Positions 30,708 through 50,408 of a DNA stretch of 64,000 nt are shown here, in pieces. The notes beneath the pieces are model-generated. The model saw only the letters and a list, made by a program, of their open reading frames with translations, was not told where the DNA came from and did not search any database. A program made the translations under genes and the position numbers. Within the stretch, counting starts at the first letter, position 1. The number at the start of each line of letters is the position of its first letter. The stretch spans positions 4,477,730 to 4,541,729 of the forward strand of contig NZ_CP016756.1 of the NCBI RefSeq assembly GCF_001700965.1, in the 5' to 3' direction. The DNA comes from Stenotrophomonas nitritireducens. Lineage in GTDB: Bacteria; Pseudomonadota; Gammaproteobacteria; Xanthomonadales; Xanthomonadaceae.

Positions 30708-32462
30708 TCATGCAGCTAGTCGCTTACTTTCATTCTGTTTGCTTTGTGCCGGCACGACCGTGTCTCGGTCGGGATTGAGCGTGACGGCACCGACGCGACT
30801 CCAGTCCCTGATCGTGCCGGTCCAACGCTGCGGATGGCGCTGGCGGGCGAGCTCGTAGACCTGAGTGCGGACTTGGAGCTGGGCGGCGTCCTGGCCCGCG
30901 TGTCGCACGGCCGGGGCGACGAAGCGCAAGCCGCTGTGCAGGTGCTCGTGGTTGTACCAGTGAACGAACTGCGCGGCCCATGTCCGTGCATCCTGCAGGT
31001 CGGCAAAGCCCCGGATCGGGAAGCCGGGGCGGTACTTTGCGGTGCGGAACAGGCTCTCCACGAAGGCGTTGTCGTCGCTGACCCGCGGGCGCGAGTAGGA
31101 CGGGGCGACGCCCAGCCACTGCAGCATCGCCAGTACCGTGGTCGCTTTCAGGGCGGCACCGTTGTCGCCATGCAGCACTGGTTTGTTGGTCGCTGCATGG
31201 ATGCCCTCGGCCAGCGCCGTGCGCTTGAGCAGATGCGCGGCATGCTCGCCGGACTCGACCTCGTGCACCTCGTGGCCGACGATCTTGCGGCTGTACAGGT
31301 CCAGGATCAGGTACAGGTAGAACCAGCGCCCGGTCACCTGCGAAGGCAGCCAGGTCACGTCCCAGCACCACACCTGGTTGGGGGCGCGGGCCACGTGCGT
31401 GGTCGGCTTGCGGCGGGCCTGCGGTGTCTTGGCGCGACCGCGGTGACTGGCCTGCCCGGCCTGGTGCAGGACCCGGTGGAAGCTCGACTCGCTGGCCAGG
31501 TAGCGGCCCTCGTCAGCCAACCGCGGCACGATCTGCGCCGGCGGCAGGGCGGCGTATTGCGGGGCGTTGGCCACCTCCAGGATCGCGGCCCGCTCCTGCT
31601 CGCTGAGCGCGTGCGCGGGGGCCGGACGCACCGCTTCGGGCCGACCATCGGCACGGATGCCCGCGCTGTCGGACAGGAACACGGATTCGTCTTCGCCTTC
31701 GAGCCAGCCGCGGCGCGACAGGTGCCGGCACACGCGATGCGCGATGGTGTTGGCGAGCTGCGTCAGTTGCGCAGAGGTGGGGGCACGGGCGCGGCGCAGG
31801 CGCGGCTTGCGCCGCGGGGGCTCGACGTTCGCGTCGTACACGCCGTCGAGCCACAGCATGTGGAAGTGAACATTCAGGTTCAGCGCGCTGCCGAAGCGCT
31901 GGATCAGGGTCACCGCGCCGCATTGCGCGCTGGCGTGGTCGACGCCGACTTGATCGGCTAACCAGCCGGCGATGACGCGCTGCACGATCACCAGCACCGG
32001 GCCGATGGCCTCCGGCTTGCTGGCGAACAGGAAGCGCAGCGGGTACGGAAAACTCAGCACCCATTGCCGCACCGGCCGCGGGCCAAACACCTCCTCCACC
32101 AGGTGCCGCGCGCTCTCGGCCATGCGCCGCGCCCCGCAGCTGGGGCAGAAGCCGCGCTTCTTGCAGGAGAAGGCCACCAGCCTCTCGGCCCGGCACTGCT
32201 CGCACACCACGCGCAGGAAACCGTGCTCGAGCACGCCGCAGCGCAGGTAGGTCTCGAACTCCTCGCGCACATACTCGGGCAGCGAGCGGTCTTGCGCCTC
32301 AAGACTTGCGATGAAGTCCGGGTAGTGCGCCTCGACCAGCGCGTACAGCAGCGTGCGCTCGGGAACATGGCGTGCGTAGCTCGGCGCGGCCGCCAGCGCG
32401 GTGTTTGCGGCACGGGCGACACGCGGCGCGGCGCGTCCCTCCGGTGCGGTGAGGCACAGCAC
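30708..32462 (-). CDS. Chimeric transposase: IS91/ISCR N-terminal half fused to IS3-family OrfB
   Basis: A 584-residue open frame from two unrelated transposases. Residues 1-267 are the N-terminal half of the IS91/ISCR protein (Cys cluster VCEQCRAERLVAFSCKKRGF-CPSC, HUH motif NVHFHML), lacking the catalytic Tyr. From about residue 268 it is an IS3-family integrase core: CWDVTWLPSQ (Asp), LHGDNGAALKA (Asp), DDNAFVESLFRTAKY (Glu). The junction is at 31660; DNA to the right matches the ISCR copy at 37.7 kb through 32681. An insertion or recombination made it, and neither half should work as a normal transposase. Confidence 0.85.
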   Translation of the reverse strand: MLCLTAPEGRAAPRVARAANTALAAAPSYARHVPERTLLYALVEAHYPDFIASLEAQDRSLPEYVREEFETYLRCGVLEHGFLRVVCEQCRAERLVAFSCKKRGFCPSCGARRMAESARHLVEEVFGPRPVRQWVLSFPYPLRFLFASKPEAIGPVLVIVQRVIAGWLADQVGVDHASAQCGAVTLIQRFGSALNLNVHFHMLWLDGVYDANVEPPRRKPRLRRARAPTSAQLTQLANTIAHRVCRHLSRRGWLEGEDESVFLSDSAGIRADGRPEAVRPAPAHALSEQERAAILEVANAPQYAALPPAQIVPRLADEGRYLASESSFHRVLHQAGQASHRGRAKTPQARRKPTTHVARAPNQVWCWDVTWLPSQVTGRWFYLYLILDLYSRKIVGHEVHEVESGEHAAHLLKRTALAEGIHAATNKPVLHGDNGAALKATTVLAMLQWLGVAPSYSRPRVSDDNAFVESLFRTAKYRPGFPIRGFADLQDARTWAAQFVHWYNHEHLHSGLRFVAPAVRHAGQDAAQLQVRTQVYELARQRHPQRWTGTIRDWSRVGAVTLNPDRDTVVPAQSKQNESKRLAA

Positions 32463-32681
32463 GGAACGATCCTGCGCATCGACGGCTGCACAGTGTTCCG
32501 CGCGGCCTCATCGCCGCCCATCGGCATTTCTCCCGCGCATGGGTAAGACATCGGCGCGGCGCAGCGTAGCAAATCACCTACCTGAGGGCACCTCTAAAAA
32601 CCCCCGCTCTCGCGCCAGCAGCCCTCAGCAGAGTGCCCCGCTGACGGCATCAGGGTGAGCGACATCGTCAAGGTGAAGGTG

Positions 32682-33570
32682 GCTGCCGCTGGTGCGGCAG
32701 ACCCTGGCCGAGGCTGGTCTCAAGATCGATGAGATCGATGGCGTGGCCTATACCGCCGGCCCCGGGCTGGTGGGGGCGCTGCTGGTCGGGGCCGGGGTCG
32801 CGCGCGCGCTGGCCTGGGCGCTGGACGTGCCGGCGGTGGCGGTCCACCACATGGAAGGCCATCTGCTGGCGCCGCTGATGGAGGATGATCCGCCGCAGCC
32901 GCCGTTCGTCGCCCTGCTGGTTTCCGGCGGCCACACCCAGCTGGTGGCGGTGGACGGCATCGGCCGCTACCGGCTGCTGGGCGAGACGCTGGACGACGCC
33001 GCCGGCGAGGCCTTCGACAAGACCGCGAAGATGATGGGCCTGCCCTATCCCGGCGGCCCACAGCTGGCCGCGCTGGCCGAACAGGGCGTGCCGGGCCGCT
33101 TCCGCTTCGCCCGGCCGATGACCGACCGGCCGGGGCTGGATTTCAGTTTCTCCGGGCTCAAGACCCAGGTGCTGCTGGCCTGGCAGCAGTCCGACCAGTC
33201 GCCGCAGACGAAGGCCGACATCGCCCGCGGCTTCGAGGACGCGGTGGTCGACACGCTCGCGATCAAGTGCGAACGCGCGCTGGACGCGGCCGGCTGCGAC
33301 GTGATCGTGGTCTCCGGCGGCGTCGGTGCCAACAAGCGCCTGCGCGCGAAGCTGCAGGAGATGGCGGACAAGCGCGGCGGCCGCGCCTGCTTCCCGCGCC
33401 CGTCGCTGTGCACCGACAACGGCGCGATGATCGCCTTCGCCGGCGCCCTGCGCCTGCAGGCCGGGCAGCGCGAGGATGCCGCGGTGCACGTGGTGCCGCG
33501 CTGGGACATGGCCTCGCTGCCGCCGGTGGCGGCAGAACGGGAATCGGGAATCGGGAATGGAGAATCGTGA
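32682..33570 (+). pseudogene. tsaD: TsaD (tRNA t6A synthase subunit), 5'-truncated
   Basis: TsaD forms threonylcarbamoyl-adenosine at A37 of ANN-decoding tRNAs. The fragment starts abruptly at [17 protein letters not shown] and continues to a natural end, lacking about the first 60 residues, including the N-terminal ATPase motif. Present are [14 protein letters not shown] (metal His pair), [19 protein letters not shown] and [12 protein letters not shown]. The 5' edge abuts 27 bp of tex sequence beyond the ISCR-like transposase, so the truncation is a transposition junction. tsaD is essential, so the host must have another copy elsewhere. Confidence 0.9.
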
Positions 33571-33630
33571 AGAGCGGCCATGCGGTTGCTCTTACCATTC
33601 CCGATTCCCGATTCCCGATTCCCGATTCCC
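33538..33630. repeat. ATTCCCG heptanucleotide repeats, inverted pair
   Basis: GGGAATC units near 33538-33556 face a run of about five ATTCCCG units near 33596-33630, in the tsaD'-folB gap. They can pair into a long stem. Such ATTCCCG runs are frequent in Lysobacter/Xanthomonas-type genomes and occur nowhere else in this window, which hints at a foreign donor for this segment. Confidence 0.7.
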
Positions 33631-33636
33631 GCCCTC

Positions 33637-34005
33637 ATGGACAAGGTTTTCATCGAAGCCCTCGAGATCGACGCCCTGATCGGCATCTACGACTGGGAGC
33701 GGCGCATCCGCCAGACGCTGGTGTTCGACCTCGAGATGGGCTTCGACAACCGCATCCCCGCCGCCAGCGACGACATCGCGCTCACCCTCAACTACAAGGC
33801 GGTGAGCAAGCGCCTCGTGGAATATGTCTCGCAGTCGGATTTCGGGCTGGTGGAGACGCTCGCCGAGCGCTGCGCGGAGATCGTGATGAACGAATTCAAC
33901 GTCGATTGGTTACGATTGAAGCTGAGCAAGCCGGGTGCGGTGCGCGGTGCGCGCGCGGTCGGTGTCATCATCGAACGTGTACGCACGCCACAAGGGAACG
34001 GATAG
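33637..34005 (+). CDS. folB: Dihydroneopterin aldolase
   Basis: A 122-residue folate-pathway enzyme converting 7,8-dihydroneopterin to 6-hydroxymethyldihydropterin. It begins MDKVFIEALEIDALIGIYDW, has RIRQTLVFDLEMGF, LTLNYKAVSKRLVEYVSQSD with the substrate-binding Tyr, ETLAERCAEIVM with the Glu, and the final LSKPGAVRGARAVGVIIER. Complete. It lies in an imported block with tsaD' upstream and folK' downstream, a normal Xanthomonadaceae arrangement. The stop is followed directly by the mscS start. Confidence 0.93.
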   Translation: MDKVFIEALEIDALIGIYDWERRIRQTLVFDLEMGFDNRIPAASDDIALTLNYKAVSKRLVEYVSQSDFGLVETLAERCAEIVMNEFNVDWLRLKLSKPGAVRGARAVGVIIERVRTPQGNG

Positions 34006-35286
34006 TTGCAGGAACAGCTGGAGACGCTTCGCACCACGCTCGCGCCCTACCCGGGCGCCTACACCGGGATCGTGATCGCCGCGCTGCTGCTGGCGGCATG
34101 GCTGGCCAACTGGCTGACCAAGCGGGTCCTGCTGCGCGGGCTCAGGCGCCTGCTGCGGGCCACTCCACTGGGGGGCGCGCAGCACGACCACGAGGTGCAG
34201 CTGCGGGTGATCCCGCGCCTGGCCAACGTGGTCCCGGCGCTGGTGATCGCCGCCGGCATCGCGGTGGTGCCGGATCTGCCGGCGCAGGTGGTCACCGTGG
34301 TGCGCGCGCTGTGCCAGGCCTTCATCGTGCTGACCGTGGCGCTGTCGATCTCGCGCGCGCTGGATCTGGCCAACCAGGTGTACGAGCGCCGCCCCGACGC
34401 GCGCAACAAGCCGATCAAGGGCTACCTGCAGGTCGCCAAGATCATCATGTTCGTGCTGGTCGCGATCTCGATCGTGGCCACCCTGGTCGGTGCCCAGTTC
34501 CTGCACATCCTCACCGGCCTGGGCGCGATGACCGCGGTGCTGATGCTGATCTTCCAGGACACGATCCTCTCGCTGGTGGCCAGCGTGCAGATCAGCAACG
34601 ACGGCCGCGTGCGCATCGGCGACTGGATCGAGATGCCCAGCCAGAACGCGGACGGCGACGTGATCGACATCGCCCTGCACACCATCACCGTGCAGAACTG
34701 GGACAAGACCATCACCACGGTCCCGACCAAGAAGCTGATCAGCGATTCGTTCAAGAACTGGCGCGGCATGAGCGAGTCGGGCGGTCGCCGGATCAAGCGT
34801 GCGATCTACCTCGACCAGCATTCGGTGCGCTTCCTCGAGGCGGGCGAGGTGTCGCGCTTGCACCGCTTCGCCCTGATCGACGGCTACCTCGGCGAGAAGC
34901 AGCGCGAACTGGGCGAATGGAACGCACGCCCGGAAGTGCGCGGCGCGGAGGCGGTGAACCAGCGCCGGGTCACCAACCTCGGCACCTTCCGCGCCTACGT
35001 CGAGCAGTACCTGCGCCACCATCCGAAGATCCACCAGGACATGACCCTGCTGGTGCGGCAGCTGCAGCCGACCTCCGAGGGCCTGCCGCTGGAGATCTAC
35101 TGCTTCACCAACGACGTGCGCTGGGCGTTCTACGAGGGCATCCAGTCCGACATCTTCGACCACCTGCTGGCGATCCTGCCGGAGTTCGGGCTGAAGGTGT
35201 TCCAGGGCAGCAGCGACGCGCCGCTGGACGTGAACCTGCGGCGCGTGGATGCGCCGTCGCATCCGGCCGGGCCGGGCGAGGGCTGA
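34006..35286 (+). CDS. MscS-family mechanosensitive channel (YbdG-like)
   Basis: A 426-residue inner-membrane protein with about five transmembrane helices and then the MscS beta domain (LSLVASVQISNDGRVRIGDW, IEMPSQNADGDVIDIALHTI, VPTKKLISDSFKNWRGM). Length and the extra C-terminal region match YbdG-type channels rather than the short MscS. The TTG start at 34006 directly abuts the folB stop, implying coupled translation. It appears intact within the imported block. Confidence 0.85.
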   Translation: MQEQLETLRTTLAPYPGAYTGIVIAALLLAAWLANWLTKRVLLRGLRRLLRATPLGGAQHDHEVQLRVIPRLANVVPALVIAAGIAVVPDLPAQVVTVVRALCQAFIVLTVALSISRALDLANQVYERRPDARNKPIKGYLQVAKIIMFVLVAISIVATLVGAQFLHILTGLGAMTAVLMLIFQDTILSLVASVQISNDGRVRIGDWIEMPSQNADGDVIDIALHTITVQNWDKTITTVPTKKLISDSFKNWRGMSESGGRRIKRAIYLDQHSVRFLEAGEVSRLHRFALIDGYLGEKQRELGEWNARPEVRGAEAVNQRRVTNLGTFRAYVEQYLRHHPKIHQDMTLLVRQLQPTSEGLPLEIYCFTNDVRWAFYEGIQSDIFDHLLAILPEFGLKVFQGSSDAPLDVNLRRVDAPSHPAGPGEG

Positions 35287-35371
35287 CGCACCGCCGCCGC
35301 ACGCGCCGGCGCGTGGCGCTCGCGCCTTCCCCGTCCGATGCGCGATCATGCGCGCTCCCCCGGAGCGCGCC

Positions 35372-35998
35372 ATGCCCACCGCCTACCTGAGTCTCGGCAG
35401 CAATCTCGACCCGGTGCGCTTCCTGCGCGAAGGCATCGCCGCCCTGCGCGCGCGCTTCGACGACGTCGCCGTATCCGCGGCGTACCGCTTTCCCGCGGTC
35501 GGCTACGACGGCCCGGACTTCATCAACGCGGCCGCCGCGATCCGCACCGAACTGTCGCCCGAGGCGCTCAACGCCTGGCTGCATGCACTCGAGGACGCGC
35601 ACGGCCGCGACCGCAGCGGCCCGCGCTACAGCGACCGCACGCTCGATATCGACATCGTGCTGTATGACGACCTCGTCGCCGAAGGCGTTGGCAACCTGCG
35701 CATCCCGCGCGACGAACTGCGCCACGCCTTCGTGCTCAAGCCGCTGGCGCAGATCGCGCCCGGCGCGGTGCATCCGCTGGAACGACGCACGATCGCCGAA
35801 CTGTGGCAGGCGCACCCCGACCACGACGTGGCGTTCGACGAAGTCGCGTATAGGAAGTTCAAACGCCCTTTTCGGGCAGTCTGCTGGGTAGGCGGCGGTC
35901 GCGCAAGCCCCGTTTTGGGCACGGATCGGACGTCTGTGAGTGGGATTTCGGCATCGCGGGGCCACGCAGCGGCGTTGTCAGCAGCCATGCTTCGCTGA
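35372..35998 (+). CDS. folK: 6-hydroxymethyl-7,8-dihydropterin pyrophosphokinase, 3' end replaced by ISCR DNA
   Basis: FolK transfers pyrophosphate to hydroxymethyldihydropterin. Residues 1-159 are native: AYLSLGSNLDPVRFLREGIA, YDGPDFINAAAAIRT, HGRDRSGPRYSDRTLDIDIV, PRDELRHAFVLKPLAQIAPG. At 35848 the sequence enters the ISCR oriIS end, and the frame runs on for 49 foreign residues (YRKFKRPFRAVCWVGG...) to a stop at 35998. The catalytic core is complete, so a fused product might still be active. The whole tsaD'-folB-mscS-folK' block is bounded by ISCR sequence on both sides. Confidence 0.88.
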   Translation: MPTAYLSLGSNLDPVRFLREGIAALRARFDDVAVSAAYRFPAVGYDGPDFINAAAAIRTELSPEALNAWLHALEDAHGRDRSGPRYSDRTLDIDIVLYDDLVAEGVGNLRIPRDELRHAFVLKPLAQIAPGAVHPLERRTIAELWQAHPDHDVAFDEVAYRKFKRPFRAVCWVGGGRASPVLGTDRTSVSGISASRGHAAALSAAMLR

Positions 35999-36620
35999 TT
36001 CCCGACAGCGGGCCGAGCGCCGCCCTGCGGATCGTGGCCGCATCGGCTCGGATTCCGGTTTCGCCGTCGGCTGTGCAGCCGGCAGATCGTCACGCGGCTT
36101 GCACTGGCGGTGCGCGCGCTGCGGGCCTGTAGTGCGCTTCTTCCCGCGCGCCCTGCTTCACAAAGTGGCCAAGGATGGCGCGGATGGCGGCAGGTTCCTC
36201 GATGCTGGCGACGATCCGCACGGTGCCACCGCAGTGGACGCAGGCGGTGACGTCGATGGAAAAGACCCGCTTGAGGCGTTGCGCCCAGCTCATCGAACGG
36301 CGCTTCTCCTCGGGGCTGCGCGGCGCGTCGTTCGCGCTTGCGTCCGCCGGCTCCACAGCGGCGTCATGCCGCCTGCCGCGCCCCGATGGCGTCAACTGTG
36401 CGCGCAGGGCGGCGTTCGGGGCAAACACCCCGTGGAAGCGGGTCAGGTGGGCGCGCGGTGGCGGGACCAGCGCCGCCAGCTTGGCGATGAAATCCACCGG
36501 ATCCCATTCCACATGCGTGGTGCCATTGCGCCACGGCGTCTTGAGCTGATACCGCACCCTACCCTGCGGTGAGATCGACAGCCGCTGCTCGCTGATCGCC
36601 GGGCGCGTGATGTAGCGGCA
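35848..36620 (-). mobile_element. ISCR-like element remnant A (oriIS end plus 3' part of transposase)
   Basis: The left boundary GTATAGGAAGTTCAAACGCC is the complement of GCGTTTGAACTTCCTATAC, the oriIS motif of ISCR elements, an exact match. The remnant contains the C-terminal third of the transposase and stops at 36620, where unrelated sequence with an SDR gene begins. Confidence 0.82.
36090..36620 (-). pseudogene. tnpA: IS91/ISCR transposase, C-terminal fragment
   Basis: About 177 residues from CRYITRPAISEQRLSISPQG (single catalytic Tyr) to the native C-terminus. Compared with the full copies at 37944 and 42376 it has many substitutions (for example RRHDAAVEPADASANDAPRS), so it derives from a related, not identical, element. 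The N-terminal two thirds, including zinc cluster and HUH motif, are missing. Confidence 0.85.
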
Positions 36621-36699
36621 GCAACGGGGCGCCAAAGCGCCCCGTTTCACATTTGCCCCTCCACACAATGGGAGAAGCTCACTAACTATCCGCCGATGC

Positions 36700-37629
36700 T
36701 CAGCATGCGGTATACCCGCCGTCGACAACCAGTTTCTGACCGGTCATAAAGGAAGACTCGTCGGACATCAGGAACACCGCCGGCTTGGCGATTTCGGCCG
36801 GAACACCCATACGGCCACCAAATTTCCCACGCGGGACAATATCTGCATCCTTCACCGGATCGTTGCACAATGGGTGCAGCGCCGCCAGCTGGGTGAAGTC
36901 AAAGGCATCCGTTTCCAAGGATTTCTCATGCGACAACTTCTCTTTGTCAGTCGTGACAGCGGCCTGGAATAGCGGCGTCATAATATATCCCGGATTCACG
37001 GTGTTCACTCGGATTCCGTATTCCGCGAACTGCAGCGCGAGGGCCTTCGACAGGCCGACAACGCCGTGTTTCCCCATCGTATACTGGACCAGATTGAAGC
37101 GTTCAATCAGCACCTCGCCCGTCTCCGTGTTCACCACCTTCGGGCGACCGGCGACGCCGTGGATGCTCGATACCAGCACGATCGAGCCCTTGGTCCCGTG
37201 CTTCATCATCAGCCGCGAGCCGTAGAGCGCGGTATTGAACACTCCGTCCTCGTTGACGCTCTGGATGAATTTTTTCGACTTCAGAACCTCCTCGGGATCC
37301 TTATCGAAATCCTCAGCCGTCGCCACGCCGGCATTGGCCATGATGGCATCCACCCGACCATAGGTCTTCTCAGTGATCTCGAAAAGTTTCTCAACATCCT
37401 TCGGATCAGTCACGTCGGTATGCACATAGAGCGCATGCCCCTCACCATATTCCTCGTTCAGGCTCTTGGCGAATGCCTCGCCCTGCTCATCGTTGATGTC
37501 GGAAATGACAACCCCATCGGCCCCTTCGGCCAAGGCTTCGCGAACCGTTGCCGAGCCAATGGAATCGAACCCGGGGATGACCGAAACCGACCCCGTCACT
37601 ACGACAATCTTGCCAGCTAGCTTACCCAT
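36700..37629 (-). CDS. SDR-family oxidoreductase
   Basis: A 309-residue NAD(P)-dependent short-chain dehydrogenase. Rossmann start KIVVVTGSVSVIPGFDSIGS, Asp after beta-2 (VVISDIND, favouring NAD), MANAGVA, catalytic Ser in VLVSSIHGVAG, and YTMGK for Tyr-x3-Lys. The dinucleotide loop is longer than the usual TGxxxGIG. The region before the C-terminus is also extended. AAGGAG precedes the ATG. It stands alone between ISCR remnant A and copy B, with lower GC than its neighbours; substrate unknown. Confidence 0.85.
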   Translation of the reverse strand: MGKLAGKIVVVTGSVSVIPGFDSIGSATVREALAEGADGVVISDINDEQGEAFAKSLNEEYGEGHALYVHTDVTDPKDVEKLFEITEKTYGRVDAIMANAGVATAEDFDKDPEEVLKSKKFIQSVNEDGVFNTALYGSRLMMKHGTKGSIVLVSSIHGVAGRPKVVNTETGEVLIERFNLVQYTMGKHGVVGLSKALALQFAEYGIRVNTVNPGYIMTPLFQAAVTTDKEKLSHEKSLETDAFDFTQLAALHPLCNDPVKDADIVPRGKFGGRMGVPAEIAKPAVFLMSDESSFMTGQKLVVDGGYTAC

Positions 37630-37690
37630 CTCGAATACTCCTTTGGTTGAGATATTAGTGAATACATGCTGCGGTAGGGCCACCTTGGGG

Positions 37691-39674
37691 TATAGGAAGT
37701 TCAACCGCCCTTTTTGGCGAGTCTGGCGGGTAGGCGGCGGTCGCGCAAGCGCCGCTTTGGGCACAGATCGGGCACAGATCGGGGGTTCATGCGTGGGTTT
37801 TCGACATCGCGGGGCCACGCAGCGGCTCAGTGCGTAGCCATTTCTCACCGAATCCCGGCACAGGGCCGAGCGCAGCCCTGCGGGGTCGTGGCCGCATCGG
37901 ATCGGACTCTGGCTTGGCTGCCGGCTGTGTGGCCGGCACCTCGTCACGCGGCCGGCGGCGGCGCGCGCGCTGCGGGCCGGTAGTGCGCTTGCTCCAGCGC
38001 GCCGTGCTTCTCGAAGTGGGCGAGGATGGCGCGGATGGCGGTGGGTTCCTCGATGCTGGCGACGATCCGTACCGCGCAGCCGCAGTGGGCGCAGGTGGTG
38101 ATGTCGATGGAAAAGACCCGCTTGAGCCGTTGCGCCCAGCTCATCGCACGGCGCTTCTGCTCGGGGCTGCGCGGCTCGTCGTGGGCGCTGACGTCCACTG
38201 GCGCCGCATCGCCCGCAGGCCGCTTGCCGCGCCCCGAGGGCGTCAGCTGCGCACGCAGGTTTGCATTCGGGGCGAATACGCCGTGGAAGCGGGTGAGATG
38301 CGCGCGAGGTGGCGGGACCAGTGCCGCCAGCTTGGCGATGAAGTCCACCGCATCCCATTCGACATGCGTGGTCCCATTTCGCCACGGCGTCTTGAGCTGA
38401 TACCGCACCCTACCCTGCGGTGAGATCGACAGCCGCTGCTCGCTGATCGCCGGGCGCGTGATGTAGCGGCACAGCTTTTCGAGCTTGTGGCTTTCGTGTG
38501 CTTCCGCGGCCACGCCGGCATGCAGCGAGAAGCCGCCGACCTTGCCGGCATCGCCCTCCAGCGAGCCTGCGTCACCGGGCAATGTTTGCAGCGTGACGAC
38601 CTTGCGGCCAGCGTCGCGACCGGTGGCGATGCGGTAGGTCATCGAACTCATCCGCAGCCCATCCATGCCGTCGTCGCTACCCGCGCTGTCGGACAGGAAC
38701 ACGGATTCGTCTTCGCCTTCGAGCCAGCCGCGGCGCGACAGGTGCCGGCACACGCGATGCGCGATGGTGTTGGCGAGCTGCGTCAGTTGCGCAGAGGTGG
38801 GGGCACGGGCGCGGCGCAGGCGCGGCTTGCGCCGCGGGGGCTCGACGTTCGCGTCGTACACGCCGTCGAGCCACAGCATGTGGAAGTGAACATTCAGGTT
38901 CAGCGCGCTGCCGAAGCGCTGGATCAGGGTCACCGCGCCGCATTGCGCGCTGGCGTGGTCGACGCCGACTTGATCGGCTAACCAGCCGGCGATGACGCGC
39001 TGCACGATCACCAGCACCGGGCCGATGGCCTCCGGCTTGCTGGCGAACAGGAAGCGCAGCGGGTACGGAAAACTCAGCACCCATTGCCGCACCGGCCGCG
39101 GGCCAAACACCTCCTCCACCAGGTGCCGCGCGCTCTCGGCCATGCGCCGCGCCCCGCAGCTGGGGCAGAAGCCGCGCTTCTTGCAGGAGAAGGCCACCAG
39201 CCTCTCGGCCCGGCACTGCTCGCACACCACGCGCAGGAAACCGTGCTCGAGCACGCCGCAGCGCAGGTAGGTCTCGAACTCCTCGCGCACATACTCGGGC
39301 AGCGAGCGGTCTTGCGCCTCAAGACTTGCGATGAAGTCCGGGTAGTGCGCCTCGACCAGCGCGTACAGCAGCGTGCGCTCGGGAACATGGCGTGCGTAGC
39401 TCGGCGCGGCCGCCAGCGCGGTGTTTGCGGCACGGGCGACACGCGGCGCGGCGCGTCCCTCCGGTGCGGTGAGGCACAGCACGGAACGATCCTGCGCATC
39501 GACGGCTGCACAGTGTTCCGCGCGGCCTCATCGCCGCCCATCGGCATTTCTCCCGCGCATGGGTAAGACATCGGCGCGGCGCAGCGTAGCAAATCACCTA
39601 CCTGAGGGCACCTCTAAAAACCCCCGCTCTCGCGCCAGCAGCCCTCAGCAGAGTGCCCCGCTGACGGCATCAGG
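37691..39674 (-). mobile_element. ISCR-like (IS91 family) element, copy B, complete transposase
   Basis: The oriIS end GTATAGGAAGTTCAACCGCC lies at the left (one mismatch to the ISCR motif). Transposase follows on the minus strand, and the upstream (terIS) side abuts tex coding sequence at about 39675, where the element seems to have entered tex. It is identical to the right part of the chimeric copy (31660-32681) and nearly identical to copy C over 1.6 kb. Confidence 0.82.
37944..39482 (-). CDS. tnpA: IS91/ISCR-type rolling-circle transposase, copy B
   Basis: A 512-residue HUH transposase that would nick at oriIS and move by rolling-circle replication. Parts: N-terminal zinc cluster (VCEQCRAERLVAFSCKKRGF-CPSC), WVLSFPYPLRFLFASKPEAI, HUH motif NLNVHFHMLWLDGVY (H199, H201), and a single catalytic Tyr340 in LCRYITRPAISEQRL, with no second Tyr four residues upstream. 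That makes it Y1, as in ISCR, rather than Y2 as in IS91. A second C-x-x-C (TCAHCGCAVRI) lies near the C-terminus. Start GTG at 39482. Confidence 0.9.
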   Translation of the reverse strand: MLCLTAPEGRAAPRVARAANTALAAAPSYARHVPERTLLYALVEAHYPDFIASLEAQDRSLPEYVREEFETYLRCGVLEHGFLRVVCEQCRAERLVAFSCKKRGFCPSCGARRMAESARHLVEEVFGPRPVRQWVLSFPYPLRFLFASKPEAIGPVLVIVQRVIAGWLADQVGVDHASAQCGAVTLIQRFGSALNLNVHFHMLWLDGVYDANVEPPRRKPRLRRARAPTSAQLTQLANTIAHRVCRHLSRRGWLEGEDESVFLSDSAGSDDGMDGLRMSSMTYRIATGRDAGRKVVTLQTLPGDAGSLEGDAGKVGGFSLHAGVAAEAHESHKLEKLCRYITRPAISEQRLSISPQGRVRYQLKTPWRNGTTHVEWDAVDFIAKLAALVPPPRAHLTRFHGVFAPNANLRAQLTPSGRGKRPAGDAAPVDVSAHDEPRSPEQKRRAMSWAQRLKRVFSIDITTCAHCGCAVRIVASIEEPTAIRAILAHFEKHGALEQAHYRPAARAPPPAA

Positions 39675-39941
39675 GTGAGCGACATCGTCAAGGTGAAGGT
39701 GCTGGAGGTCGATGTGCCGCGCAAGCGCATCGCCCTGACCCGGCGGCTGGACGACGTGCCCGGCGAGAAGCCGGCACGCGAGGCGCGCGGCGAGCAGCCG
39801 CGTGGCGGCCAGGACCGCGGCGGCGGACGTGGACCGGGCGGTCCGCGTGGCGGGCGTGGGCCGGGCGGCAAGCCCGCCACCGCCTCACCGCCGGCCAACA
39901 ACGCCCTGGCCGACGCCTTCGCCCGCGCGCGCGGGCGCTAG
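39675..39941 (+). pseudogene. tex: Tex transcription accessory protein, C-terminal fragment
   Basis: 88 residues of the S1 RNA-binding domain and C-terminal tail of Tex: [26 protein letters not shown], a Gly/Arg-rich linker and [15 protein letters not shown]. About 700 N-terminal residues are missing because the ISCR-like element replaces them. The first 27 bp also occur at 32655-32681 beside the chimeric copy, joined there to tsaD. Confidence 0.85.
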
Positions 39942-40350
39942 CCGGGGCTCCGACACGGGGCGCCTGAACACCACGCCCCTCGACGGGGTAATCTTCGCTC
40001 CCGCATGCGGGAGCGGGCCACGGCGGGGCAATGCACCCGGAAGGCCGGCAGGTCCAGAGGCGCGTTGATGGCGCGGTTGCCCGGATGCGGCCGTGTCCGG
40101 CCCGACCCGGCACAGGCCACCGCACCCGTGGGGCGCGAACGCCCTGCAGGGCGGCTTCGCCCACCGCCATCGTTGACTGGACGGGTGCGACTTTCCTGCA
40201 CGGGAAAGCGCGCACGCACGACCACCCGGCCGCGGGCGCGCGCGCATTCATCACAGACGTACTGGACAGTACAGTATTATGGCCGTGCGCTTCCCCGCGA
40301 ACCGGCAGCCATCGCTCCCGATGCGTCCCCCTTCCTCGAGGTCCGATGAC
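39942..40350. other. Intergenic stretch between tex' and gcd'
   Basis: About 409 bp of very GC-rich sequence with no gene I can support. It includes the short palindrome GTACTGGACAGTAC near 40260-40273, which could be an operator for the downstream gene fragment. Probably native intergenic DNA of the donor. Confidence 0.45.
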
Positions 40351-40635
40351 ATGAACACCACTTCCGTGGCGCCTGCGGGCGCCAGTACCGGTCGCTGGCC
40401 ATTGCGCCTGTTCGGCGCGGCGCTCGTACTGATCGCGCTACCGCTGCTCGCCGGCGGGCTCTACCTGATCACCCTTGGCGGCTCCTGGTATTACCTGCTG
40501 GCCGGCCTGGCGCTGGCACTGAGCGGATTCTTCTACGTCCGCCGCGCGCCCGTCGCGGCCTGGCTGCTGGCCGCGACCACCATCGCGACCGTGCTGTGGT
40601 CGCTGTGGGAAGTCGGCGCCCGCTTCTGGGAACTT
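40351..40635 (+). pseudogene. gcd: Membrane-bound PQQ glucose/quinate dehydrogenase, N-terminal fragment
   Basis: About 95 residues: a short soluble leader and the transmembrane domain (LRLFGAALVLIALPLLAGGL, LGGSWYYLLAGLALALSGFF, LLAATTIATVLWSLWEVG), the signature N-terminus of membrane-bound PQQ-dependent dehydrogenases. The beta-propeller catalytic part is absent. At about 40630 the sequence changes to a lemA gene on the opposite strand, so this is a second, non-ISCR-visible junction. The frame then runs on meaninglessly to 41325. Confidence 0.8.
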
Positions 40636-41181
40636 CACTTCCGGCGGAGTGCTGAGGGCTTCGCGGCCCTCGACGCCGACATCGAAGAAGTCGCGGCCTT
40701 CGAAATTGAACATGCCCGCGATGATGGAACCGGGGAACTGTTCGCGGGACGTGTTGTAGTCCTGAACCGCCGAGTTGTAGAACCGGCGCGCCGCGGCCAG
40801 CTTGTCCTCGATGGCGGACAGCTCGTTCTGCAGCTGGATGAAGTTCGTGTTCGCCTTCAGGTCCGGATAGGCTTCCGCCAGTGCGAACAGCTTGCCCAGC
40901 GAGGCAGTCAGCATGCCCTCGGCCTGGCTCATTTCAGCCGGCGTATGAGCGCTCTGCGCCGCATTCCGGGCAGCGATCACCTGCTGCAGCGTGTCCTGTT
41001 CGTGCTTGGCATAGCCCTTCACGGTCTCGACGAGGTTCGGGATCAGGTTCTGGCGCTGTTTCAGCTGCACATCGACGTCAGCAAAGGCCTGGTTGACCCG
41101 CTGCCGCTTCATCACAAGACCGTTGTAAATCAGGATAATGAAGCCAGCGATCAATACGATGACGCCAAGTCCAATAAGCAT
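40438..41181 (-). CDS. lemA: LemA family protein, C-terminal end fused to foreign sequence
   Basis: LemA proteins are envelope proteins with an N-terminal membrane helix and a helical bundle; their role is unclear. The protein begins MLIGLGVIVLIAGFIILIYN, then RVNQAFADVDVQLKQRQNLI, PNLVETVKGYAKHEQ and SLGKLFALAEAYPDLKAN. Native sequence extends to about ALSTPPEVKF (near 40636), just short of the usual stop, and then continues through the antisense of gcd' to 40438. It would add about 65 unrelated residues. Codon use differs from the core genes, suggesting a different donor, perhaps alphaproteobacterial. Confidence 0.82.
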   Translation of the reverse strand: MLIGLGVIVLIAGFIILIYNGLVMKRQRVNQAFADVDVQLKQRQNLIPNLVETVKGYAKHEQDTLQQVIAARNAAQSAHTPAEMSQAEGMLTASLGKLFALAEAYPDLKANTNFIQLQNELSAIEDKLAAARRFYNSAVQDYNTSREQFPGSIIAGMFNFEGRDFFDVGVEGREALSTPPEVKFPEAGADFPQRPQHGRDGGRGQQPGRDGRAADVEESAQCQRQAGQQVIPGAAKGDQVEPAGEQR

Positions 41182-41328
41182 GTGTGTCCCTCCGGAAAGC
41201 CTTACGCATCAACGCCTAACCGGCACCGCCGCCTCACGCAAGGAAAACCCGGGACATCCGGACTGCATCAAGGCTTGACCTGGCCGCCCGGCCTGGCCAC
41301 CCAGTATATAACGATCAGGAACTGACCC

Positions 41329-42051
41329 ATGGCCGAATCTGCACCGGAATCCGACAATTCCTACATCCACAAAGAACACCACTATTTCCAGCGGGTGAAC
41401 TGGCTGCGCGCCGCCGTGCTCGGCGCCAATGACGGCATCCTGTCCACCGCCGGCCTGCTGATCGGTGTTGCCTCCGCAGACGCCACACCCGGCGCGATCT
41501 TCACCGCCGGCCTCGCGGGCCTGGTGGCCGGTGCCATGTCGATGGCCGCCGGGGAATATGTGTCCGTCTCCTCGCAGGCAGACCTCGAAAAGGCAGACCT
41601 CGCGATCGAGCGCGCCGCCCTTCACAGCCATCCGGACGCCGAACTCCAGGAGCTGACCGAAATCTATATCAGCCGCGGCCTGACCCCTGAAACGGCCCGG
41701 GACGTCGCCCGGCAGCTGACAGAGCATGACGCCCTGGAAGCCCATGCGCGTGACGAACTCGGCATGAGTGAGATCGTCGCCGCCAAACCTGTGCAGGCGG
41801 CGGTCAGCTCCGCCCTCAGCTTCTCCGTCGGCGCCGTCCTGCCGATCATTGCTGCTGTTGCTTCGCCGGCTGGCCTGATCACGCCGGTTGTGGCCGTCGT
41901 GTCCCTGATCAGCCTCGGCATCCTCGGCGCCCTGTCGGCCCGCGCGGGCGGGGCCAGCAAGAGCAAGGCCGCCGCGCGCGTCGTGTTCTGGGGTGTCGCT
42001 GCCATGCTGGCGACCGGCGTGATCGGGCACCTGTTCGGCACGGTGGTTTAA
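41329..42051 (+). CDS. VIT1/CCC1 family iron/manganese transporter
   Basis: A 240-residue integral membrane protein: EHHYFQRVNWLRAAVLGAND, GILSTAGLLIGVASA, GLAGLVAGAMSMAAGEYVSV (first helices with the metal-translocation Asp, Met and Glu), a cytoplasmic insert with acidic residues and the last three helices. This is the VIT/CCC1 fold, which exports Fe2+ or Mn2+. It appears complete and follows lemA' divergently by 147 bp. Fused or mobile origin is implied by its place between junctions. Confidence 0.9.
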   Translation: MAESAPESDNSYIHKEHHYFQRVNWLRAAVLGANDGILSTAGLLIGVASADATPGAIFTAGLAGLVAGAMSMAAGEYVSVSSQADLEKADLAIERAALHSHPDAELQELTEIYISRGLTPETARDVARQLTEHDALEAHARDELGMSEIVAAKPVQAAVSSALSFSVGAVLPIIAAVASPAGLITPVVAVVSLISLGILGALSARAGGASKSKAAARVVFWGVAAMLATGVIGHLFGTVV

Positions 42052-42121
42052 CGCAGCGCTGGCAACGCCCTGTAAACAGACCCCGGTCAGAGATCATTGC
42101 ATCTGTCCGGAAGATTGAAGG

Positions 42122-43917
42122 GTATAGGAAGTTCAACCGCCCTTTTTGGCGAGTCTGGCGGGTAGGAAGCGGCCGCGCAAGCGCCGCTTTGGGCACAGAT
42201 CGGGCACAGATCGGGGGTTCATGCGTGGGTTTTCGACATCGCGGGGCCACGCAGCGGCTCAGTGCGTAGCCATTTCTCACCGAATCCCGGCACAGGGCCG
42301 AGCGCAGCCCTGCGGGGTCGTGGCCGCATCGGATCGGACTCTGGCTTGGCTGCCGGCTGTGTGGCCGGCACCTCGTCACGCGGCCGGCGGCGGCGCGCGC
42401 GCTGCGGGCCGGTAGTGCGCTTGCTCCAGCGCGCCGTGCTTCTCGAAGTGGGCGAGGATGGCGCGGATGGCGGTGGGTTCCTCGATGCTGGCGACGATCC
42501 GTACCGCGCAGCCGCAGTGGGCGCAGGTGGTGATGTCGATGGAAAAGACCCGCTTGAGCCGTTGCGCCCAGCTCATCGCACGGCGCTTCTGCTCGGGGCT
42601 GCGCGGCTCGTCGTGGGCGCTGACGTCCACTGGCGCCGCATCGCCCGCAGGCCGCTTGCCGCGCCCCGAGGGCGTCAGCTGCGCACGCAGGTTTGCATTC
42701 GGGGCGAATACGCCGTGGAAGCGGGTGAGATGCGCGCGAGGTGGCGGGACCAGTGCCGCCAGCTCGGCGATGAAGTCCACCGCATCCCATTCGACATGCG
42801 TGGTCCCATTTCGCCACGGCGTCTTGAGCTGATACCGCACCCTACCCTGCGGTGAGATCGACAGCCGCTGCTCGCTGATCGCCGGGCGCGTGATGTAGCG
42901 GCACAGCTTTTCGAGCTTGTGGCTTTCGTGTGCTTCCGCGGCCACGCCGGCATGCAGCGAGAAGCCGCCGACCTTGCCGGCATCGCCCTCCAGCGAGCCT
43001 GCGTCACCGGGCAATGTTTGCAGCGTGACGACCTTGCGGCCAGCGTCGCGACCGGTGGCGATGCGGTAGGTCATCGAACTCATCCGCAGCCCATCCATGC
43101 CGTCGTCGCTACCCGCGCTGTCGGACAGGAACACGGATTCGTCTTCGCCTTCGAGCCAGCCGCGGCGCGACAGGTGCCGGCACACGCGATGCGCGATGGT
43201 GTTGGCGAGCTGCGTCAGTTGCGCAGAGGTGGGGGCACGGGCGCGGCGCAGGCGCGGCTTGCGCCGCGGGGGCTCGACGTTCGCGTCGTACACGCCGTCG
43301 AGCCACAGCATGTGGAAGTGAACATTCAGGTTCAGCGCGCTGCCGAAGCGCTGGATCAGGGTCACCGCGCCGCATTGCGCGCTGGCGTGGTCGACGCCGA
43401 CTTGATCGGCTAACCAGCCGGCGATGACGCGCTGCACGATCACCAGCACCGGGCCGATGGCCTCCGGCTTGCTGGCGAACAGGAAGCGCAGCGGGTACGG
43501 AAAACTCAGCACCCATTGCCGCACCGGCCGCGGGCCAAACACCTCCTCCACCAGGTGCCGCGCGCTCTCGGCCATGCGCCGCGCCCCGCAGCTGGGGCAG
43601 AAGCCGCGCTTCTTGCAGGAGAAGGCCACCAGCCTCTCGGCCCGGCACTGCTCGCACACCACGCGCAGGAAACCGTGCTCGAGCACGCCGCAGCGCAGGT
43701 AGGTCTCGAACTCCTCGCGCACATACTCGGGCAGCGAGCGGTCTTCTACCTCACGGCGCGCGAGAAAGTCCGGCCAATGCGCCTGCACCAGCGAATACAG
43801 CAGCGTGCGCTCGGGACGGTGAGGCGCATAGCGAGCCGTGGGCAGATGCGCTGCCGGCGACGTTGCGTGCGCCACGGCATCCTGCAGCTGCGACACGGTC
43901 GCGGCGAGGCGCGGCAC
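42122..43917 (-). mobile_element. ISCR-like (IS91 family) element, copy C
   Basis: The oriIS end GTATAGGAAGTTCAACCGCC lies at 42122. The sequence matches copy B almost base for base as far as about 43744, then changes to a different 5' part of the transposase gene. It lies in the same orientation as A and B. What follows on its upstream side is non-coding DNA and groEL'. Confidence 0.82.
42376..43917 (-). CDS. tnpA: IS91/ISCR-type rolling-circle transposase, copy C (mosaic N-terminus)
   Basis: A 513-residue protein identical to copy B over the C-terminal ~455 residues apart from one visible Lys/Glu change (FIAELAALV). The first ~57 residues differ (VPRLAATVSQLQDAVAHATS, ARREVEDRSLPEYV in place of EAQDRSLPEYV). 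So the 5' part comes from a related element, joined at about 43744 by recombination in the conserved DRSLPEYV coding region. Zinc cluster, HUH and single Tyr are all present. Start GTG at 43917. Confidence 0.9.
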   Translation of the reverse strand: MPRLAATVSQLQDAVAHATSPAAHLPTARYAPHRPERTLLYSLVQAHWPDFLARREVEDRSLPEYVREEFETYLRCGVLEHGFLRVVCEQCRAERLVAFSCKKRGFCPSCGARRMAESARHLVEEVFGPRPVRQWVLSFPYPLRFLFASKPEAIGPVLVIVQRVIAGWLADQVGVDHASAQCGAVTLIQRFGSALNLNVHFHMLWLDGVYDANVEPPRRKPRLRRARAPTSAQLTQLANTIAHRVCRHLSRRGWLEGEDESVFLSDSAGSDDGMDGLRMSSMTYRIATGRDAGRKVVTLQTLPGDAGSLEGDAGKVGGFSLHAGVAAEAHESHKLEKLCRYITRPAISEQRLSISPQGRVRYQLKTPWRNGTTHVEWDAVDFIAELAALVPPPRAHLTRFHGVFAPNANLRAQLTPSGRGKRPAGDAAPVDVSAHDEPRSPEQKRRAMSWAQRLKRVFSIDITTCAHCGCAVRIVASIEEPTAIRAILAHFEKHGALEQAHYRPAARAPPPAA

Positions 43918-44051
43918 GAAACACTCCGGTGCAGGGAATGGCTGCTCAGGCTTGCGCCCGCCCCGGCCGGTTCATATCGGCCTTTTCCGGTTTTCGTATC
44001 GGACATCGCCGCGCTTAAGACAGGGCGTTTCCCACGTCGGACGCCAGAAAG

Positions 44052-44082
44052 CACGAAGCCCGGCAAAAGGCCGGGCTTCGTG
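44052..44082 (-). terminator. groEL terminator-type hairpin
   Basis: CACGAAGCCCGGC / GCCGGGCTTCGTG type stem around AAAA, about 80 bases beyond the groEL' stop on the minus strand. Strong stem; it probably came with the groEL fragment. Confidence 0.7.
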
Positions 44083-44160
44083 GTCACGCTTGCTTGCTGG
44101 AGGGCGCGGTTCGCCCGCTGCGCGGACGTCTTCGCGCCACCACTGGCGCGATGGGCGGAC

Positions 44161-44893
44161 TTAGAAATCCATACCACCCATGCCACCCATGCCACCACCT
44201 GCCGGCATGGCGGGTTCTTCCTTCTTCGGCGCCTCGGCCACCATCGCTTCGGTGGTGATCATCAGGCCCGCGATGGAGGCGGCGTTCTGCAGTGCGGTAC
44301 GCGTGACCTTGGTCGGATCCAGGATACCGAAGGCCACCATGTCGCCGAACTGGCCGTTGGCAGCGTTGTAGCCGAAGTTGCCCGAGCCGGCCTTCACTTC
44401 GTTGACGATGACCGAAGGCTCTTCACCGGCGTTGGTGACGATCTCGCGCAGCGGAGCTTCCATCGCACGCAGGGCGATGACGATGCCGTGGTTCTGGTCT
44501 TCGTTGGCGCCCTTGAGGTTCTCGATGGCCGCCTTGGCACGGATCAGGGCCACGCCGCCGCCCGGTACCACGCCTTCTTCCACCGCTGCACGGGTGGCGT
44601 GCAGGGCGTCTTCGACGCGCGCCTTCTTTTCCTTCATTTCCACTTCGGTCGCAGCGCCCACCTTGATGACGGCCACGCCGCCGGCCAGCTTGGCCACGCG
44701 CTCCTGCAGCTTCTCGCGGTCGTAGTCCGAAGAAGTTTCCTCGATCTGCGCCTTGATCTGGCCGATGCGGGCCTGAATGCGCTCGGCATCGCCGGCGCCG
44801 TCGATGATGGTGCTGTTTTCCTTGGTGATGACGACGCGCTTGGCGCGACCCAGATCGTTGATCGTGGCCTTCTCCAGCGACAGGCCGACTTCG
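44161..44893 (-). pseudogene. groEL: GroEL chaperonin, C-terminal fragment
   Basis: About 243 residues of the 60-kDa chaperonin, from [20 protein letters not shown] (apical-domain end) through the equatorial domain ([40 protein letters not shown]) to the typical [15 protein letters not shown] tail. The first ~300 residues are missing. At 44893 the sequence switches to a hydrolase fragment on the other strand. The open frame reading into that sequence is not native. Confidence 0.9.
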
Positions 44894-45387
44894 CAGCACT
44901 GGATTTCCGTCCGCCGGATGCGGAGCAGTACCGTGGCGATACGGCATTGTCGGCGATGCCGCCCAAGCTGATCCTGGCACAGGCCATCGCCATGGCCCTC
45001 GACGTCAAGACCGTATCGGATGCGGAAGCGGATGCCGCGTTGAACACGTTGGCGACACGCTTCACCCGCAACATGGTCTGCGATCCGCGCAAGGTGCAGC
45101 CTGAGGAAGGAGGCGCGGGGCTGTACGTGCGCACCGGCGCGAACTGGTTCGGCGATGTCGCCGATCCCCGCCCGCAGATGCGCCGCTTCCCCGGAAAGGT
45201 GCTGGTGCTCCAGGGGCAGTGCGACTTCGTGCCTTACGCCGAAGCCTACGAGTACGTGGACCTGTTCCCCGACGCGCGTTACCGGTTCGTCGCCGGCGCC
45301 GGACACATCCTGTGGTGGGAGCGGCCGGATGCGTATGCGCGATCCATCGAGGCCTTCCTAGCCGAGGGGGGCGGAGATCCTCCGTAG
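44894..45387 (+). pseudogene. Alpha/beta hydrolase (proline-iminopeptidase-like), C-terminal fragment
   Basis: About 160 residues: [52 protein letters not shown] and [20 protein letters not shown]. The last two contain the acid (Asp) and base (His) of an alpha/beta-hydrolase triad; the nucleophile-bearing N-terminal half is missing. It faces groEL' tail to tail at a direct junction with no spacer, so both were truncated in one event. Confidence 0.72.
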
Positions 45388-45415
45388 CGTCTTGACCAGC
45401 ATGAATCGCCCCGCT

Positions 45416-46681
45416 TCAGCGGAACTCGAACAATTCGTGCCGCAACCGGTCTTCCGCCACGCCGGTTTCCCGCATCAGCTGGCGCACCTGGTCCAGCAGG
45501 CCCTTGGGGCCGCAGAAGCTGATCTGCACCCCCGACGCTCCCGCCCGCTCGACCCGTTGCGCGAACTGCTGACGAAAGCCGGCTGACGACGGTCCCGTGG
45601 CGATGTCGATCAGTTCGACACCCCGCGCACGCGCCATCCCCGCCAGATCCACGGCGTCGGGAAGCTCGCGACCCGGCGTGAAGAAATGGAAGAAGGTCAC
45701 GCCGTCCAACGCGGACGCGTCGGCATCGCGAAGCCAGGCAATGAACGGCGTCACGCCCACGCCACCGGCGATCCATATCTCCTTCCGTCCGGTGGGCCTG
45801 TGCTCGAACCGGCCGAACGGCGCATAGACCTGTGCCACCATCCCGGGCCTGGCATCCCTCACCAGCCGCTCCGTGTAATCGCCCAGCGAACGCACCATGA
45901 AGGCGATGCCGCCATCGGCGTCCCCCGCGCTGGCGATGGTGAAGGGATGCGGCTCGCGCAGGCCGTCGTGTCCGAAGGATACGAACGCGAACTGGCCGGG
46001 CAGGAACGGAATGCCCGGACCTTCGGGCACCAGCTGCAGGTGGACGGCACTGCCGTTGGCGGACACCGCGCGCAGGCGGTACCGCGCATGCCGCGAGAAC
46101 AGGGGATACAGCAGCAGCTTGTAGGCCGCCCCCATCACGCCCAGCGACGACAGCACGGCCAGCCATGCGCCCGCCGCGCTGGCCAGCGCGATGGGCGACT
46201 TGAAGCTGGCCCAGTGCGCCACGACGATCAGGAACAGCGGACCGGACAGCTTGTGCCACCACCGCCAGGTCCGGTACGGGATCTTGCGGTTCAGCGCCAG
46301 CAGCACGATGAGCATCAGCGAGACGAAGCTGAGCTGCCGGACGAGCCGCGTCACCGGTCCTGGCAGCGGCAGGATGGCCGCTGTCTCCCATGCCGGAGAA
46401 CCCGCCTTGAAGACCAGATGGACCGAGGCGAACACCAGCGCCCACACGCCCAGCCACTTATGCGTCTCATAGACGCGGTCCAGACCACCGAACAGCGACT
46501 CGACCGCCTTCCAGCGTGCCCCGAGGACGGCCGCAAGGGCCATCAGCGACACGGCGGCGACGCCCGAACCCAGGCTGAGCATCCCCGTGGTCGGCCAGGT
46601 GCTGCCGGGAACCGCCGAGGCCGTCAGCGCGAAGCTGGCCAACACCGCGGGAACAATCAGGGAATGCGAACCGAGGCGCAT
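45416..46681 (-). CDS. Ferric-reductase-like transmembrane flavoprotein
   Basis: A 421-residue inner-membrane oxidoreductase. The N-terminal half has about six helices with heme-ligand-type His (HKWLGVWALVFASVHLVF, WWHKLSGPLFLIVVAHWASF). The C-terminal half is a ferredoxin-NADP reductase module: FAD motif REPHPFTIAS, NAD(P) motif IWIAGGVGVTPFIAWL, terminal CGPKGLLDQV. This matches the FRE/NOX-like ferric reductase family, perhaps reducing ferric iron or passing electrons to a partner. It appears complete, with ATG at 46681. Its link to the hydrolase fragment is unclear. Confidence 0.82.
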   Translation of the reverse strand: MRLGSHSLIVPAVLASFALTASAVPGSTWPTTGMLSLGSGVAAVSLMALAAVLGARWKAVESLFGGLDRVYETHKWLGVWALVFASVHLVFKAGSPAWETAAILPLPGPVTRLVRQLSFVSLMLIVLLALNRKIPYRTWRWWHKLSGPLFLIVVAHWASFKSPIALASAAGAWLAVLSSLGVMGAAYKLLLYPLFSRHARYRLRAVSANGSAVHLQLVPEGPGIPFLPGQFAFVSFGHDGLREPHPFTIASAGDADGGIAFMVRSLGDYTERLVRDARPGMVAQVYAPFGRFEHRPTGRKEIWIAGGVGVTPFIAWLRDADASALDGVTFFHFFTPGRELPDAVDLAGMARARGVELIDIATGPSSAGFRQQFAQRVERAGASGVQISFCGPKGLLDQVRQLMRETGVAEDRLRHELFEFR

Positions 46682-46767
46682 GACAGATCCGTCCAATCGA
46701 AAGGCCGGATCGAATGATACCGTCAGGCGTGCCGACGCGCGTTGATCGGGATCAATCTGGCGACCTG

Positions 46768-47340
46768 ATTAGCCCCGACCGCAAAGACCTGGACGGCCAG
46801 TTGTTCGAGACCTTTGCCGACTGCCGCTGGTCGATCCGTGCCACGCCGGTGCAGGCCAACAGCCGCGACGACCTGCGCGAGCAGCTCACGGCCGTGGAAG
46901 CCGGCGGCGTGTTCTTCACCACCATCAACAAGTTCGCTCCCGAGCGTGGCCAGACTTCGGTGCCGGTCCTCTGCGAGCGCAGCAATGTCATCGTGATCGC
47001 CGACGAGGCGCACCGCACGCAGTACGGCTTCAGAGCCGACCTCGATACCAAGACGGGCCAGACCAAGTACGGCCTCGCCAAGTACATGCGCGATGCGCTG
47101 CCGAACGCGATCTACCTTGGCATGACCGGCACGCCTGTGAGCCTGGACGACCGCGACACCGAGGCGGTCTTCGGCACCTACGTCGACGTCTACGACATGA
47201 TCGCCGCGCAGGAAGACGAGGCGGTGGTGCCAGTCAGCTACGAGAGCCGGATCATCGAGCTTCGCTTCAATGAGGCCGAGAAGCAGGCGCTCATGAGGGT
47301 CGGCAGGGAATCGTTACGTACAGGGCCAAATGCCACCTAA
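46768..47340 (+). pseudogene. hsdR: Type I restriction enzyme HsdR, internal fragment
   Basis: About 175 residues of the HsdR motor region: DRKDLDGQLFETFADCRW, AVEAGGVFFTTINKFAPERG, motif II VIVIADEAHRTQYGF and motif III AIYLGMTGTPV. Nuclease domain and most of the helicase are missing on both sides. It enters at about 46770 and leaves its frame's homology at about 47300, just before the Tn3-family transposase. It is non-functional as a restriction enzyme. Confidence 0.85.
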
Positions 47341-50385: not shown

Positions 50386-50408
50386 TGGATCCGGAGGTTA
50401 TGAGGGGA

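Follow-up and report, generated by a model that had tools for sequence, protein, structure and literature searches.

The window considered here is the last 64 kb (64,000 nucleotides) of the single 4,541,729-bp contig NZ_CP016756.1 of Stenotrophomonas nitritireducens. It contains a row of four IS91/ISCR-type units (U1 to U4), all oriented alike and separated by unrelated DNA carrying pieces of ordinary chromosomal genes, many of them truncated (marked below with a prime). The array showed no antibiotic resistance gene. The four units in a single orientation had been recognized in an initial annotation, and comparison of repeats and domains confirms them as ISCR-type, with the qualification that only U3 and U4 have whole transposases: U2 stops at 36620, and the unit that had been placed at 30.7 kb does contain an ISCR, but a truncated one (31660-32658) whose frame enters a different insertion sequence (IS) with an rve domain (30708-31659). 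The features are as follows.

30311-31659, minus strand: a different IS whose frame (30708-31659) has an rve integrase domain and is joined to the N-terminus of the U1 transposase; left end of the block shared with a metagenome-assembled genome
31660-32658, minus strand: U1, ISCR reduced to the N-terminal part of the transposase and the upstream side, identical to U3 (100%)
32659-32681, plus strand: 23 bp of tex, with the ISCR-tex join as in U3 (boundary to within a few bases)
32682-35845, plus strand: payload tsaD'-folB-mscS-folK', colinear with a Luteimonas-group genome at 82-83%
35846-36620, minus strand: U2, ISCR reduced to its ori end and the C-terminal part of the transposase, 85% identical to U3
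36621-37687, minus strand: payload, intact short-chain dehydrogenase/reductase (SDR) gene (36700-37629), GC content ~57%
37688-39678, minus strand: U3, ISCR, whole as far as comparison reaches, transposase 37944-39482 (512 aa)
39679-40629, plus strand: payload tex'-gcd', Luteimonas-like
40630-42119: payload lemA' (minus) and whole VIT gene 41329-42051 (plus), Hyphomonas-like
42120-43917, minus strand: U4, ISCR, transposase 42376-43917 (513 aa)
44161-44892, minus strand: groEL', C-terminal part
44893-46763: payload hydrolase' (plus, to 45387) and ferric reductase (minus, 45416-46696)
46764-47295, plus strand: join and hsdR' fragment (46775-47295)
47296-50385, minus strand: Tn3-family element, where the shared block stops

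The U3 limit at 39678 is the point of divergence from four of the related loci described below (L017, L018, L054 and L063); U4 is listed to the end of its transposase gene, and its ter limit lies somewhere between 43917 and groEL'. Both complete transposases are HUH-type, with Zn_Tnp_IS91 (PF14319, zinc-binding) and Y2_Tnp (PF04986) domains and intact HFH and CRYITRP motifs, which we take to have their usual meaning in transposases of this type. U1 and U3 are the same over 1,022 bp (31660-32681, no mismatches), and between U3 and U4 there are 4 differences in 1,626 bp (37688-39313) and then 16 in the next 50 bp, the alignment ending at 39384. Repeats of 1-1.7 kb at 98.8-100% identity exclude chance. 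All four matches listed for U3 in its own genome fall inside the window. The units were not seen to be flanked by inverted repeats of at least 30 bp.

Ancestry of the cargo

Pfam and NCBIfam profiles support the TsaD, FolB, MscS-type channel, FolK, SDR, LemA, VIT1 and ferric reductase assignments, identify gcd' as the N-terminus of a PQQ membrane dehydrogenase and groEL' as the C-terminal part of GroEL, and match hydrolase' weakly to alpha/beta hydrolases. The 88-aa tex tail has no Pfam or NCBIfam profile match; we take its name from the initial annotation. The gene names proposed there are thereby upheld, weakly in the case of the hydrolase and by DNA homology in that of tex. That nearly all segments are cut inside genes is mostly borne out; the SDR stretch, with its complete gene, is the exception, and folB, mscS, VIT and the ferric reductase gene also look complete.

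As judged by DNA identity, the ancestry of the cargo is different from segment to segment. In 345 genomes of the family, tsaD'-folB-mscS-folK' finds a colinear counterpart over its full length, at 82-83%, in a genome (G126) of a genus, g29, that we infer to be Luteimonas. Apart from the window itself, the host's own genus (91 genomes, that of the window among them) offers at best 78% over tsaD-mscS, with shorter pieces at 82-86%. The tex'-gcd' segment, searched by itself in g29, in its own genome and in eight others, has its two parts ~290 bp apart in another g29 genome (G428), at 80 and 82%; in one of the eight (G007), tex' matches at 85% over 114 bp. Some part of the DNA at 39679-41330 is matched in 51 of 52 g29 genomes, mostly the first 250-290 bp. 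The lemA'-VIT segment is colinear at 81% with a genome (G790, among 398 searched) that shares only its phylum with the host; for the VIT protein, identity to one labelled Hyphomonas sp. is 93%. The hydrolase'-ferric reductase segment is colinear at 89% with G212, of another Lysobacteraceae genus (g17; 297 genomes searched). The groEL gene of G212 itself lies 1.3 Mb from that stretch, and groEL' is 86-89% identical to many genomes of the family. Among 397 other genomes of the order, none matched the SDR stretch at E values up to 1e-30, and megablast against plasmids gave no match either; the nearest relative of its protein among 27 listed is 93% identical. A single donor matching all segments contiguously is therefore not what is found: the relatives lie in g29, in g17 and outside the class, and none is an exact donor. 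The host retains its own tsaD-folB-mscS, folK, groEL and tex, at 71-82% identity to the array copies.

Between tsaD and folB lies a GGGAATC-rich inverted repeat (33538-33631) that, among the matches listed, matches only itself in the host and occurs at many places in G007 and in the metagenome-assembled genome G001, a pattern that is a further sign of a putatively foreign source. A tRNA called by ARAGORN at 34212 lies inside mscS, has no defined identity and was discarded as a false call.

Joins, related loci and a second genome

A scan of genome contigs for transposase relatives yielded 68 loci (the best 80 of 90 stretches), some of them from the same genome. U2, U3 and U4 start on their low-coordinate side with GTATAGGAAGTTC, the ori end, which lies downstream of the transposase gene and is of the GTATAGGAAGTTCA type. 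With at most 1 mismatch, this sharp element end is kept at 51 distinct ori junctions from all loci and the window; the two bases in front of GTATAGG are G (94%) and G or C (82 and 18%), and conservation does not extend past them. At their opposite end, U1 and U3 have in common an ISCR-tex join that reads ...GGGTGA followed by GCGACATC. Past it, U1 has 23 bp of tex and then tsaD, and U3 has ~950 bp of tex and gcd and then lemA'. L017, L018, L054 and L063 (the last a locus of Stenotrophomonas sp. PS02289, G006) have the ISCR end of U1 and U3 followed by other DNA, identical in all four, and count as one alternative join. The join on the element side shifts by no more than a few bases, while the outer limit is variable.

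The same is seen with groEL. Against the ISCR-groEL arrangement of an NDM plasmid as reference, groEL alignments end at 2206, 2285, 2327, 2617, 2706 (the window and L113) and 2950. These positions are where the alignments stop and were not all inspected individually; they exclude L069 and L065, with pieces that are scattered or abut a cut ISCR, as well as pieces at contig ends. Cutting of groEL at no fewer than six points across related loci fits read-through with variable stopping. In L022, L023, L043 and L053 the alignment crosses groEL; for L043 the plasmid record gives the order transposase-groL-groES-cutA-trpF-ble-blaNDM-1. A possible hot spot of breakage near the transposase Tyr codons, where U2 stops, was considered and rejected, since the ends are scattered. 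They cluster on the U3 reference at 1114-1118, 1665, 1697 and 1834-1837, the last three probably being limits of element subtypes.

Two or more units are present at 26 of the 68 loci (hits below 80 bp excluded, hits within 300 bp merged), in one orientation at 25 of these and in mixed orientation at L068. The U3/U4-type transposase is 86% identical to that of L024-L033, ten records from several genera with one ISCR unit in common; their frames resemble floR and tetR/tet-type efflux genes, and we take them to be ISCR3-like. Eight of these (L025-L031 and L033) each make up an entire contig of 7.06-7.30 kb, as would result if assembly had collapsed a tandem array or a circle. L021, L040, L041, L054, L062 and L075 (L021 and L054 from the same genome) have one cargo in common, mostly at 90-98%, in which a presumably outer-membrane-efflux-like protein lies next to the ISCR.

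Part of the array recurs on contigs of the Lysobacterales metagenome-assembled genome SCN18_13_7_16_R1_B_69_60 (G001, locus L064). These match the window over 5,565 bp without mismatch (32145-37709), at 2,869 of 2,871 bp from groEL' through hydrolase' and the ferric reductase gene (43893-46763, 2 mismatches), with 2 mismatches over 30311-31838 and at 100% over 46775-47295. Sharing is bounded at 30311 by the other IS and at 47295 by the Tn3-like element. In G001, a distinct genome, the resident groEL has 83% identity to that of the host and the tsaD stretch 77%, with shorter pieces at 74-86%; the ferric reductase and hsdR pieces are on a 192-kb contig together with this groEL. Six of the ten joins listed for the array recur there: IS-U1, tex-tsaD, folK'-U2, U2-SDR, SDR-U3 and groEL'-hydrolase'. 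About 20 bp past 46763, G001 continues with the ori end of another, truncated ISCR and with a resolvase and a type I restriction system that includes a whole hsdR. The window is without the 7,642 bp that G001 has between the ferric reductase gene and hsdR', a difference most simply explained by loss in the window's line. The third ISCR of G001 has a single base different from U3 within its initial 250 bp, followed by 41 differing sites as far as 38579. Among plasmids, no record covers 80% of the whole array, in a collection from which records of near kin may be missing; 1,133 plasmid records match some part of 43700-46800.

L037, from Lysobacter defluvii, has an ISCR, a VIT gene, a distant ferric-reductase homologue (61% DNA identity) and another ISCR at 10001-14772, VIT and ferric reductase genes being cargo there as in the window. 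The VIT gene of another G001 contig, L115, lies within 886 bp of identity to ISCR-adjacent DNA of L037.

Origin of the array and its known relatives

IS91 moves by one-ended transposition, with an HUH transposase, a fixed ori end and read-through past ter, and the array units resemble it in the first two respects and would do so in the third. One-ended read-through combined with recombination between copies, as the initial annotation had proposed, is the likely origin of this array of ISCR27/ISCR3-type elements of the IS91 family and the reading that fits it best. Rolling-circle replication would run from ori past ter into neighbouring host DNA, and circles of element plus captured DNA would probably join resident copies by homologous recombination. 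Each payload would have been acquired by such read-through, and the tex-tsaD, gcd'-lemA' and groEL'-hydrolase' joins would each mark a point where the element had entered another host and then captured DNA again. The differences between U3 and U4, and between the window and the metagenome assembly, would come from recombination within ISCR copies. A fixed element join with a variable outer limit, payloads of mixed ancestry, head-to-tail order and ISCR exchange are all expected from capture plus recombination.

Several observations weigh against this account. No exact or close donor was found, the colinear stretches having 79-89% DNA identity; neither capture sites nor an empty donor site nor a circle has been seen. 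The limit of U3 at 39678 is a point of divergence and may not be its true ter end, and that of U4 lies somewhere short of groEL'. The U2-SDR join misfits simple read-through: U2 is without a ter side, and later deletion or recombination is needed to account for it. GAAC/CAAG-type targets are a trait of IS91 itself, and no such tetranucleotide stands at the 51 ori junctions; a GAAC at the gcd-lemA join was rejected as a target, since none of the nine other joins listed starts with it, and no literature on ISCRs sharing the IS91 target was found. The U3-tex', gcd'-lemA', VIT-U4 and ferric reductase-hsdR' joins are known from the window assembly only, no near-identical tex'..VIT stretch is present among the matches listed for G001, and L115 bears a different payload. 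The count of single-orientation loci is one of related loci, L064 included, and assemblies may lose inverted repeats.

It might be supposed that the row is no more than a recombination hot spot, in which independent ISCR insertions recombined with foreign DNA and the transposase captured nothing. Recombination within ISCR copies is required in any case, and the U2-SDR join does sit at the cut end of a truncated ISCR. A hot spot is nevertheless unlikely, because one ISCR-tex join has two outer limits and one ISCR-groEL arrangement at least six, so that the element is fixed and the distal point varies, and because a single orientation at 25 of 26 multi-unit loci is required by integration of circles through homologous recombination and not by random insertion. 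Far less probable still is an artefact of assembly. Near-identical repeats of 1-1.7 kb do exist and four of the ten joins are unseen elsewhere, but the genome is a single contig of 4.54 Mb and the other six joins recur in an independent assembly. That the array arrived whole in one horizontally acquired block, an integrative element or a plasmid, with nothing captured here, is somewhat favoured. It is compatible with read-through capture, since it concerns the last move, and near-exact sharing over thousands of base pairs with a genome whose groEL is so different speaks for it, as do integrases close to the array in the window and in G001. Such an arrival leaves the joining of the payloads unexplained, and the L115 payload, the extra 7.6 kb and the different third ISCR of G001 indicate that the array kept changing.

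If capture by read-through did build the array, fragments read outward from the transposase may list successive hosts: groEL' and then hydrolase'-ferric reductase in one case, Luteimonas-like tex'-gcd' and then lemA'-VIT from a Hyphomonas-like alphaproteobacterium in the other. Arrays of this kind would then record movement across classes, with xanthomonads as a reservoir of ISCR27/ISCR3. We hold this tentatively, as a possibility and not as the likelier case; were it true, the group would have spread from xanthomonads, later carrying NDM and floR.

The array is a new case of a known mechanism, this time with housekeeping genes as its load, and does not represent a new type of system. Traits of the ISCR27/ISCR3 group are present in a close transposase and in groEL' on the ter side of U4 (U1 and U3 have tex there). 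That the load consists of ordinary chromosomal genes holds, but the groEL' part belongs to a group that carries resistance genes elsewhere. The nearest comparison is the blaNDM-1 plasmid pRB151-NDM, with ISCR27 beside groEL-groES. Its transposase is 93% identical over residues 33-501 (best segment), transposase is followed by groEL in both, and the DNA of the two aligns from the ori end of U4 as far as 44892 within groEL. The plasmid goes on with a whole groEL-groES-cutA and a resistance gene, whereas in the window groEL is cut at 44892 and hydrolase'-ferric reductase follows. The name ISCR27 for the element beside groEL is from PMC12566650 (the plasmid record says IS91 family transposase), according to which groES-groEL-ISCR27 may derive from Xanthomonas and ISCR27 is hypothesized to have first mobilised blaNDM there.

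The array is unusual in its cargo and in the clarity of its record of stepwise capture, and the novelty first claimed for it was overstated: ISCR rows with ordinary genes are already described in PMC9602987 and PMC9984417. The ISCR29-dGroL-blaAFM-ble-dTrpF-dISCR27-msrB-msrA-yfcG-corA modules set out there resemble the window as an ISCR row with truncated groL and ordinary cargo; they are plasmid-borne and carry a resistance gene, while the window has four units on a chromosome. In sul4-ISCR20 (PMC5732528), chromosomal folate-pathway DNA with a partial FolK domain likewise lies near an ISCR, but the ISCR is different, the source Chloroflexi-like and the context an integron. Among the titles and abstract openings listed, none concerned a xanthomonad chromosome bearing an ISCR array of housekeeping genes. 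What matters here is that the ISCR27/ISCR3 group, known from resistance plasmids, is found with ordinary chromosomal cargo in Stenotrophomonas-like and Lysobacterales genomes, and that distinct genomes share parts of it to the base. The fixed ISCR-groEL and ISCR-tex joins with their varying outer limits offer a natural series for read-through capture without resistance selection, and it bears on the hypothesis (PMC12566650) of blaNDM mobilisation by ISCR27 in Xanthomonas.

To the left of the array (18652-28738) are Zot-like and Rep_trans genes resembling those of a filamentous prophage, a KfrA-like protein and a phage-type integrase. To its right (47295-62154), the Tn3-family element is followed by an integrase and by cation efflux, EptA-like and RND efflux genes; the first 1 kb of the Tn3-family element occurs again, at 100% identity, at 1.96 Mb of the same genome.

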